Made by a program: the position numbers and the translations under genes
Part shown: positions 1,160-59,091 of the stretch, one piece after another
Layout of the letters: each line of letters begins with the position of its first letter
How positions within the stretch are numbered: position 1 is the stretch's first letter
Assembly: GCA_029246105.1 (NCBI GenBank)
Contig: JAQWOA010000004.1
Coordinates: 1-64,000, forward strand
DNA from: Woeseiaceae bacterium
GTDB taxonomy: Bacteria > Pseudomonadota > Gammaproteobacteria > Steroidobacterales > Woeseiaceae
Direction: 5' to 3'
Length of the DNA: 64,000 bases
Notes under the pieces: generated by a model
Database searches by the model: none
What the model saw: the letters and a program-made list of their open reading frames with translations, nothing else
What the model was told of the DNA's origin: nothing

Positions 1160-1310
1160 CGGGGCCCGACGCCAGATCCCCCCTTATCTTTTGGCTCTGG
1201 GCCCCGAATCTCACCGAATGAAATTCGGTGAACAAACGGACCAAGTTGGTCCGACACGGCACCCCCCTGCCGTTCTTTGAACGCCGAAGATTATTCTTCG
1301 GCGTTTTTTT
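1160..1310 (+). ncRNA. Five-hairpin structured RNA with two C-rich loops (candidate new sRNA)
   Basis: Five stems follow one another with almost no linker. (A) CGGGGCCC 1160-1167 pairs with 1199-1206 and encloses a smaller stem (1171-1176 with 1190-1195) whose loop holds six C at 1178-1183. (B) CACCGAAT 1212-1219 pairs with 1223-1230, loop GAA. (C) CGGACC 1237-1242 pairs with 1248-1253. (D) ACGGCA 1256-1261 pairs with 1268-1273 around a loop of exactly six C. (E) is the intrinsic terminator. The series begins 18 nt after the stop codon of the small ORF. C-rich loops can bind G-rich ribosome-binding sites, as in alphaproteobacterial CcsR RNAs that also follow a small ORF, but no sequence relation is claimed. 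The structures are read directly; the function is inference. Confidence 0.65.
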
Positions 1311-1311
1311 T
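1280..1311 (+). terminator. Intrinsic terminator ending the sigma-54 transcript
   Basis: AACGCCGAAGA (1280-1290) pairs perfectly with TCTTCGGCGTT (1295-1305) across a 4-nt loop and is followed by a T run to 1311. It closes the hairpin array and marks the 3' end of the transcript that starts near 941. Confidence 0.9.
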
Positions 1312-1452
1312 AATTACCATAAGTGAGCTTCAGCACGAATGGCAAGATCGCCAGACATTATTGAATTCATGGAAACTTTTCGATAAAGACACTATTTCGA
1401 TATGTAATATAATTAAAAAGAGATAGGTGAATCAAAAGTAAATTTCACAAAT

Positions 1453-57102: not shown

Positions 57103-57477
57103 ATGAAACGAGCTAAAGACTACTTAAGTCAAGCAAACAGTGTGTGCCCTAGAATCAGTGCAGCCGAAGGTGTCAAAAAATATGAAGCTGGACATTCAGT
57201 ATTCATTGATGTTCGAGACAGTGCAGAAATCAATGCTACAGGATCCATAGCTGGTTCTCTCAGGATACCAAGAGGATTTATCGAGTTTGCAGCAGACGAT
57301 GAAACTGACTTCCATAATAAATTATTAACAAAAGAATCTGATATTGTCTTAGTTTGTGGCGCCGGCGGAATGGCTGCGTTGAGCGGTAAAACTTTAATAG
57401 ATATGGGTTATGAAAACGTCTCTAACGTGGGTGGAATTGGCGATTGGATTGATGCGGGTGGTCCGATCGAGACCTAG
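57103..57477 (+). CDS. Rhodanese-like domain protein
   Basis: A single rhodanese domain fills the 124 residues: AAEGVKKYEAGHSVFIDVRD, a conserved IAGSLRIPRGFIEF segment and the active-site loop VLVCGAGGMAALSG with the catalytic Cys, then NVGGIGDWIDAGGPI. Such proteins carry sulfur as a persulfide. There is no signal peptide, so it acts in the cytoplasm. It is 63 bp downstream of the two-helix membrane protein, the widest gap in this run of genes. Confidence 0.92.
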   Translation: MKRAKDYLSQANSVCPRISAAEGVKKYEAGHSVFIDVRDSAEINATGSIAGSLRIPRGFIEFAADDETDFHNKLLTKESDIVLVCGAGGMAALSGKTLIDMGYENVSNVGGIGDWIDAGGPIET

Positions 57478-57483
57478 AATATT

Positions 57484-57798
57484 TTGAATACTAGCTCAAA
57501 ATTTATTCTTAGATGTTTAAGCGTATTTTCAGTTATTTTAATACTGCCTTTTCCTACTGAGTTTTATTATTTTGCAAGGGTTATAGTTTTCTTAGGCGCC
57601 ATCTACGCCGCTATAAAGATCAAATCACTTAACTACACGCAAGGGGAATCTTTATTCTTCCTTCTTTGCGTAATTGCCTTTATTTTTAACCCTATAATAA
57701 TGATCTTCCTTTATTCAAAGGCCTTATGGTCAATATTAAACATACTGGCAGCTTTTGCTTTCTTTAAGGCTGCTTCTTTACCTAAAGATGAAAGCTAG
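57484..57798 (+). CDS. Small membrane protein
   Basis: The 104-residue frame starts with TTG 57484, 6 bp after the rhodanese stop, and contains three to four hydrophobic segments (LRCLSVFSVILILPFP, VIVFLGAIYAAIKI, LFFLLCVIAFIFNPIIMIFL, ILNILAAFAFF). Its pattern resembles small DUF-type membrane proteins, but no family is named. It is read in the same direction as, and directly before, a 41-residue frame. Confidence 0.65.
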   Translation: MNTSSKFILRCLSVFSVILILPFPTEFYYFARVIVFLGAIYAAIKIKSLNYTQGESLFFLLCVIAFIFNPIIMIFLYSKALWSILNILAAFAFFKAASLPKDES

Positions 57799-57807
57799 GA
57801 AGCTTAG

Positions 57808-57933
57808 ATGAGAGAAGACAATACAATAAGAAATATAGGCTTATTATTACTAGTACTTTACTTTGTCTTCAGATGCTCTGTTGGATTTGAACCTTATGAT
57901 GATAATAGCTTCTGGATGGACGGAGGTCGCTAA
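57808..57933 (+). CDS. 41-residue membrane peptide
   Basis: The ATG at 57808 follows AGGA at 57797-57800, which overlaps the stop of the preceding gene. The peptide MREDNTIRNIGLLLLVLYFV continues with a short acidic tail and ends at TAA 57931-57933. One hydrophobic span covers residues 9-22. The ribosome site and tight coupling support translation, but no family is known. It is the last gene before the hairpin at 57948-57969. Confidence 0.55.
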   Translation: MREDNTIRNIGLLLLVLYFVFRCSVGFEPYDDNSFWMDGGR

Positions 57934-57940
57934 TAAACGA

Positions 57941-58020
57941 TTAAAAAAAACGGGCCCGAAGGCCCGTTTGGGTAACTGAAATGGCAATAAGCCGCTCTTA
58001 TACAATAAAAACCCTCCCTA
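57941..58020 (-). ncRNA. Candidate ~80-nt small RNA antiparallel to hemC
   Basis: On the minus strand a TTGCAG / TAATAC promoter-like pair precedes GGGAGGG (58019-58013). It is followed by a short stem-loop (GGC-TTATT-GCC) and a strong terminator ending at 57941. No minus-strand gene lies upstream that would need this terminator, since hemC and the genes to the left are on the plus strand. A short independent RNA explains it best. Start and function are inference. Confidence 0.4.
57942..57969 (-). terminator. Strong minus-strand intrinsic terminator with UUCG loop
   Basis: Read on the minus strand, AAACGGGCC (57969-57961) pairs with GGCCCGTTT (57956-57948) around a TTCG loop closed by C-G, followed by a run of eight T. 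On the plus strand the same stem has only three T, so it would be a weak stop for the preceding operon. Orientation therefore favours a minus-strand transcript. Confidence 0.75.
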
Positions 58021-58156
58021 AAAATGTATTAAATTAATAAAGAAAGCTGCAAAGTGGGAAGGAACTTTCTTAACGATCACTCGCAAGTCGACAATAAAGA
58101 GCTGATAATCAGCTGCTAGTATTTAGATAGAATATGCTGGTAGATAATAAGGAGTT

Positions 58157-58168
58157 ATGCCCGTTTGA
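58157..58168 (+). other. Three-codon upstream frame overlapping the hemC start
   Basis: AAGGAG (58149-58154) lies only 2 bp before ATG-CCC-GTT-TGA, whose stop overlaps the hemC TTG start (58165-58167) in TTGA. It is about 10 bp before that TTG, a good distance. The tiny frame may be chance, or may affect how often hemC is started. Confidence 0.3.
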
Positions 58169-59091
58169 AAATTCGTATCGCAACTCGCAAAAGCGCTCTC
58201 GCGCTTTGGCAAGCTAAGCATGTTGCCGCTGAACTCATTAAGCTCCCGGACGTTTCAGAAGCTGAGCTTGTTCCGATGTCGACTAAGGGCGATGAAATTC
58301 TCGATCGCAGTTTGCAAAAAATTGGTGGTAAAGGACTATTCATCAAAGAGTTGGAGATTGCTATGCAAAATGGTATGGCAGATATTGCAGTACATTCAAT
58401 GAAAGATGTGCCAGCTGAAATGTCAACAGGATTCTGTATCGCCGCAACTATGACTCGAGCGAATCACAGAGATGCACTGATAACGAACGGTGGAATACAG
58501 CTCAATGATCTAGCAAAGAACGCATTAGTTGGCAGTTCGAGTTTACGCCGACAGGCACAACTTAAAATGCTCCGCCCCGACCTTTGCGTTAAGCCGCTCA
58601 GAGGCAATGTGGATACACGGCTCGAAAAACTTGAGAATGGTGATTATGACGCGATCATTCTCGCTGCGGCTGGCCTAGAGCGACTTCAACTCGAAAATCA
58701 TATAAGTCATCAGTTTTCGCCCACTGAGATGTTGCCAGCTGCAGCGCAAGGTGTGCTGGGAATCGAATGTCTTGAAGACAATATTGAACTTCGTAGAATA
58801 CTTAAATCGCTCAATAACCCGACAACATTACAAACCACCAATGCGGAGCGCGCAATTGCGCGCGTTCTCAAGGCAAGCTGTCAGTCTCCGGTCGCAGCAT
58901 TCGCCACAGTTAAAGATGGTGCATTGGAATTAACTGCCCTAGTAGCACATCCTAACGGCAGGGAAACAATCAAGGATTCAATCAACGGTGATGCAAGTGA
59001 GGCAGAACAGCTCGGCGAAATGCTGGCCTTTTGCTTAATTACCAGTGGTGCTAGAGAGCTTCTAGACTCTATTGAGGCTTTAAATGAATGA
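58165..59091 (+). CDS. hemC: Porphobilinogen deaminase (hydroxymethylbilane synthase)
   Basis: HemC assembles four porphobilinogen units into hydroxymethylbilane. The 308-residue protein begins at TTG 58165, giving MKIRIATRKSALALWQAKHV, the usual family N terminus. SSLRRQAQLKMLRP and LRGNVDTRLEKLENG are visible, and the dipyrromethane cofactor Cys lies in VLKASCQSPVAAFA. hemD overlaps its end by 8 bp. It leads the heme gene set hemC-hemD-hemX-hemY. Confidence 0.96.
   Translation: MKIRIATRKSALALWQAKHVAAELIKLPDVSEAELVPMSTKGDEILDRSLQKIGGKGLFIKELEIAMQNGMADIAVHSMKDVPAEMSTGFCIAATMTRANHRDALITNGGIQLNDLAKNALVGSSSLRRQAQLKMLRPDLCVKPLRGNVDTRLEKLENGDYDAIILAAAGLERLQLENHISHQFSPTEMLPAAAQGVLGIECLEDNIELRRILKSLNNPTTLQTTNAERAIARVLKASCQSPVAAFATVKDGALELTALVAHPNGRETIKDSINGDASEAEQLGEMLAFCLITSGARELLDSIEALNE

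Follow-up and report, generated by a model that had tools for sequence, protein, structure and literature searches.

The 64-kb window (the whole 64,000-nucleotide stretch of Woeseiaceae DNA analyzed here) carries on its plus strand, in order, a cytochrome c gene, two small ORFs, a rhodanese gene, a gene for a DUF6804 protein and a 41-aa ORF (57808-57933), followed by a short hairpin (57943-57969), hemC, encoding porphobilinogen deaminase (58165-59091), and hemD. The segment made up of the rhodanese, DUF6804 and 41-aa ORFs (57103-57933) occupies the place held in relatives by gcw_chp-glnK-amt. The DUF6804 protein (57484-57798) was found in just one other genome of the genus, at 33% identity, and together with the rhodanese at 57103 it was possibly acquired in place of gcw_chp-glnK-amt. 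In a search of a plasmid collection with the locus the sole match was hemC, and a literature search found nothing on this locus.

Analysis of the hairpin revealed an intrinsic terminator, with a GC-rich stem-loop and a T-rich tract directly after it, on the minus strand only. Folding and sequence define a 9-bp stem (AAACGGGCC/GGCCCGTTT), a cUUCGg tetraloop and a T8 tract; the minus strand from 57969 to 57948 reads AAACGGGCC-TTCG-GGCCCGTTT and then TTTTTAATCG, with the T8 tract after the GGCCCG arm. The minus strand of the 80-nt stretch that includes it folds at −27.3 kcal/mol (z = −2.99). The bare hairpin is worth about −15 kcal/mol on both strands (−15.7 kcal/mol on the plus strand), and the terminator is assigned to the minus strand because T8 follows the stem there, as against only TTTGGG on the plus strand. 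A strict scan of the 64-kb window (minimum stem length 8, with five or more G-C pairs and six or more T among 8 positions) returned two sites, this hairpin and a plus-strand one near 1306; of 12 dinucleotide shuffles of the window, 11 contained none. The other very strong intrinsic terminator of the window (1280-1313, plus strand) consists of CGCCGAAGATTATTCTTCGGCG followed by T8. In its GC-rich stem, cUUCGg loop and T8 directly after the stem, the hairpin resembles other UUCG-tetraloop Rho-independent terminators, but it differs from them in having no gene on its own strand and in adjoining a pseudogene relic. These results bear out the initial annotation in its description of a strong UUCG-loop terminator, on the minus strand only, before hemC.

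The further claim that no protein gene needs this terminator is correct for this genome, as no minus-strand gene lies ahead of it, but the hairpin starts about 10 nt past the stop codon of the plus-strand 41-aa ORF. It might therefore act on the rhodanese-DUF6804-ORF41 transcript, terminating it weakly or bidirectionally or stabilizing its 3' end. The equal stability of the stem on the plus strand is consistent with such a role; however, just three T precede GGG on that strand and the T tract of the relatives' hairpins described below is found on one side only, and we consider a plus-strand function unlikely.

Comparison with other members of the genus revealed gene loss directly upstream of hemC. 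The algZ-algR-hemC cluster is known from Pseudomonas, and in the genus the genes for a histidine kinase and a LytTR regulator and hemC follow one another in the same order, with an algR-like LytTR response regulator gene directly 5' of hemC in most members. In contrast, the window retains only a decayed algR 3' end (58055-58160, plus strand). The C-terminal protein sequence is readable from about 58080 to 58160, in frame but with stops (SQVDNKELIISC*YLDRICW* versus SQVDDKELIISRRHLAEVRRRLKG in the intact protein, asterisks marking stops), and nucleotide similarity extends left to about 58055. Over about 50 nt the relic is 83-89% identical to intact algR, and blastn matched this stretch in many relatives at 81-92%. 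A hairpin-like sequence within it (AGCTGATAATCAGCT, 58100-58114) was rejected as an RNA element; it is algR coding sequence (ELIIS). In one relative (L009 of G014), about 70 extra bases, absent in other relatives, lie between the end of algR and hemC. A search for algR orthologs in G000 (the window genome), G004 and G011 found none, the best matches being generic receiver domains at 25-34%; algZ-algR is lost in the window genome and in two further reduced genomes. Genomes G000, G004 and G011 measure 1.35-1.5 Mb, compared with 2.0-5.4 Mb for other members of the genus.

The same comparison provided a candidate source for the terminator. The gene order of the genus is gcw_chp, glnK (P-II), amt, a terminator, DUF4124, algZ (the histidine kinase), algR and hemC, and this order, with the terminator 3' of amt, was present in 16 of the 20 regions fetched. 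The amt terminators have the sequence CGGGCC-TTCG-GGCCCG or one close to it, with a T tract after the stem on one side only, and most of the hairpin matches in the genus are located about 2.45 kb 5' of hemC and on its strand. Within 57930-58066, only the hairpin, the T tract and a small number of adjoining bases matched other genomes of the genus or family. The exact 21-mer CGGGCCTTCGGGCCCGTTTTT occurs in seven of 73 genus genomes and is absent from the other 66, with one copy each in G000, G072, G011, G013 and G083, two in G059 and three in G070; no genome exceeds three copies, and the window genome has a single one. Of the nine copies outside the window, six are situated 3' of amt and upstream of hemC, between amt and algZ or hemC; the remaining three occur elsewhere in G059 and G070. 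The window hairpin is like the genus glnK-amt terminator in stem, loop, T tract and syntenic region upstream of hemC, but it is in the opposite orientation relative to hemC and belongs to a genome without amt.

We propose that the hairpin is probably a relic derived from the amt terminator, which was turned round in the course of gene loss as the genome shrank. The case is made by the rarity of the hairpin and its position, and the amt terminators of the genus share hairpin and T tract with the window. Because the window hairpin has the opposite orientation to these terminators, an inversion must be assumed. Different states of decay were seen among the reduced genomes. In G011, amt is followed by a terminator facing hemC, an algR relic and, 155 nt on, hemC, an intermediate state; the G011 and window hairpins are 92% identical over 38 nt but have opposite orientations relative to hemC. 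In G004, amt and its terminator are gone from the locus and a 78-aa ORF is joined straight to the algR relic. In the window, amt is absent and the hairpin is kept once, at the expected place and facing away from hemC. In G011 (L077:4087-4424) we also observed a 39-nt inverted repeat whose arms, separated by 260 nt, enclose the amt 3' end and terminator. Its right arm abuts the algR relic, and the repeat may reflect either a fold-back rearrangement or an error of assembly. Recombination between arms of this kind would turn the terminator round and is a possible route for the flip in the window, where no inverted repeat of the G011 type was found.

Several observations count against descent from the amt terminator. 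The lack of a G011-type inverted repeat in the window is one; another is the short flank homology to the G011 amt terminator, which is limited to TCAGTTAC (anchored shuffle p ~0.08). This upstream flank (57970-57979, minus strand) contains CAGTTAC, which also precedes the G011 terminator, as a weak match outside the hairpin. No amt coding relic was recovered, matches on the minus strand beside the hairpin being no better than shuffles and therefore rejected. Hairpins of this type are also present in G059, G070 and further members of the family at sites not next to amt, and amt was not found in the window assembly, although this absence could be due to chance since neither the window genome nor its relatives have complete assemblies. 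Some of these points would also fit an unrelated terminator, of independent origin or brought in with the rhodanese-DUF6804 segment, whose likeness to the amt terminator is fortuitous: similar UUCG hairpins stand at other family genes, the flank homology is weak, and most genomes of the genus lack the rhodanese-DUF6804 segment. Nevertheless, such a coincidence appears improbable for an exact 21-mer that is missing from most of the genus, as counted above, and occurs singly in the window genome at the expected syntenic place.

According to the relic explanation, the ancestral state, which is preserved in the relatives, was an intrinsic terminator of a glnK-amt operon reading towards hemC, about 2.45 kb upstream of it. 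Deletion of DUF4124, algZ and almost all of algR in the reduced lineage placed the terminator beside hemC; this is seen in G011 and would have occurred likewise in the window lineage. There, a short segment carrying the terminator would also have been inverted and amt lost. Today the hairpin may stop antisense transcription from running into the rhodanese operon; such transcription could start in the interval between that operon and hemC, for instance through divergent firing at a new hemC promoter. Once flipped, the hairpin would no longer block plus-strand read-through into hemC. The descent, the inversion and this present effect are inferred.

Two opposed candidate promoters were predicted between the hairpin and hemC with approximate E. 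coli matrices: CTGAAA-19-TACAAT (57976-58006, plus strand, 9.1 bits), possibly for hemC, and a mediocre σ70-like TTGCAG-18-TACATT (58023-58052, minus strand, 8.5 bits). Two reports (PMC12825309, PMC10268837) describe bacterial promoters as commonly firing in both directions. Like the bidirectional promoters treated there, the opposed sites (57976-58052) could yield divergent transcripts, but the sites in the window are predictions whose −10 boxes lie about 17 bp apart with no shared symmetric box.

The minus-strand candidate bears on the proposal, made in the initial annotation, that a short RNA starting near GGGAGGG (58011-58018, minus strand) explains the terminator. A dedicated small RNA of about 70-75 nt, starting near 58016, ending at the T tract and pairing with pyrimidine-rich targets, would have a strong terminator and a candidate promoter with a predicted start at 58014-58018, near GGGAGGG. 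A score of 8.5 bits arises by chance in about 2% of cases for a given 5-nt stretch, but in 35% of composition-matched local shuffles somewhere in the region, and such scores are common by chance in AT-rich DNA. The would-be RNA body and promoter (57980-58066) had no match in the 72 other genomes of the genus or the 106 other genomes of the family that were sampled, and GGGAGGG was absent from all of them, contrary to the conservation that the initial annotation named as a check. An Rfam scan returned no family at threshold; the best match was MicF (25.7 of 79 bits), in which the terminator hairpin aligned most clearly, and the MicF, rimP and L20-leader matches, weak and centred on the hairpin and T tract, were rejected. 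Given also that the terminator has another likely and simpler origin, a dedicated small RNA seems very unlikely, and the original proposal keeps in its favour the minus-facing terminator and a mediocre candidate promoter. A young, lineage-specific small RNA, formed when inversion turned the stranded amt terminator towards a divergent promoter that had emerged at hemC following the algZ-algR deletion, is less likely still.

A short minus-strand transcript ending at the hairpin is plausible, though less likely than its absence, and any RNA so made would be a by-product; a selected, functional regulator RNA at this locus is unlikely. Overall, we regard the locus as an ordinary feature with an instructive history. 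It illustrates how comparison of neighbours can account for a terminator that seems to have no purpose in a genome undergoing reduction, and it is a warning that a strand-specific terminator alone does not justify calling a small RNA. If a transcript is made, the locus would represent a traceable case of deletions joining a promoter and a terminator.
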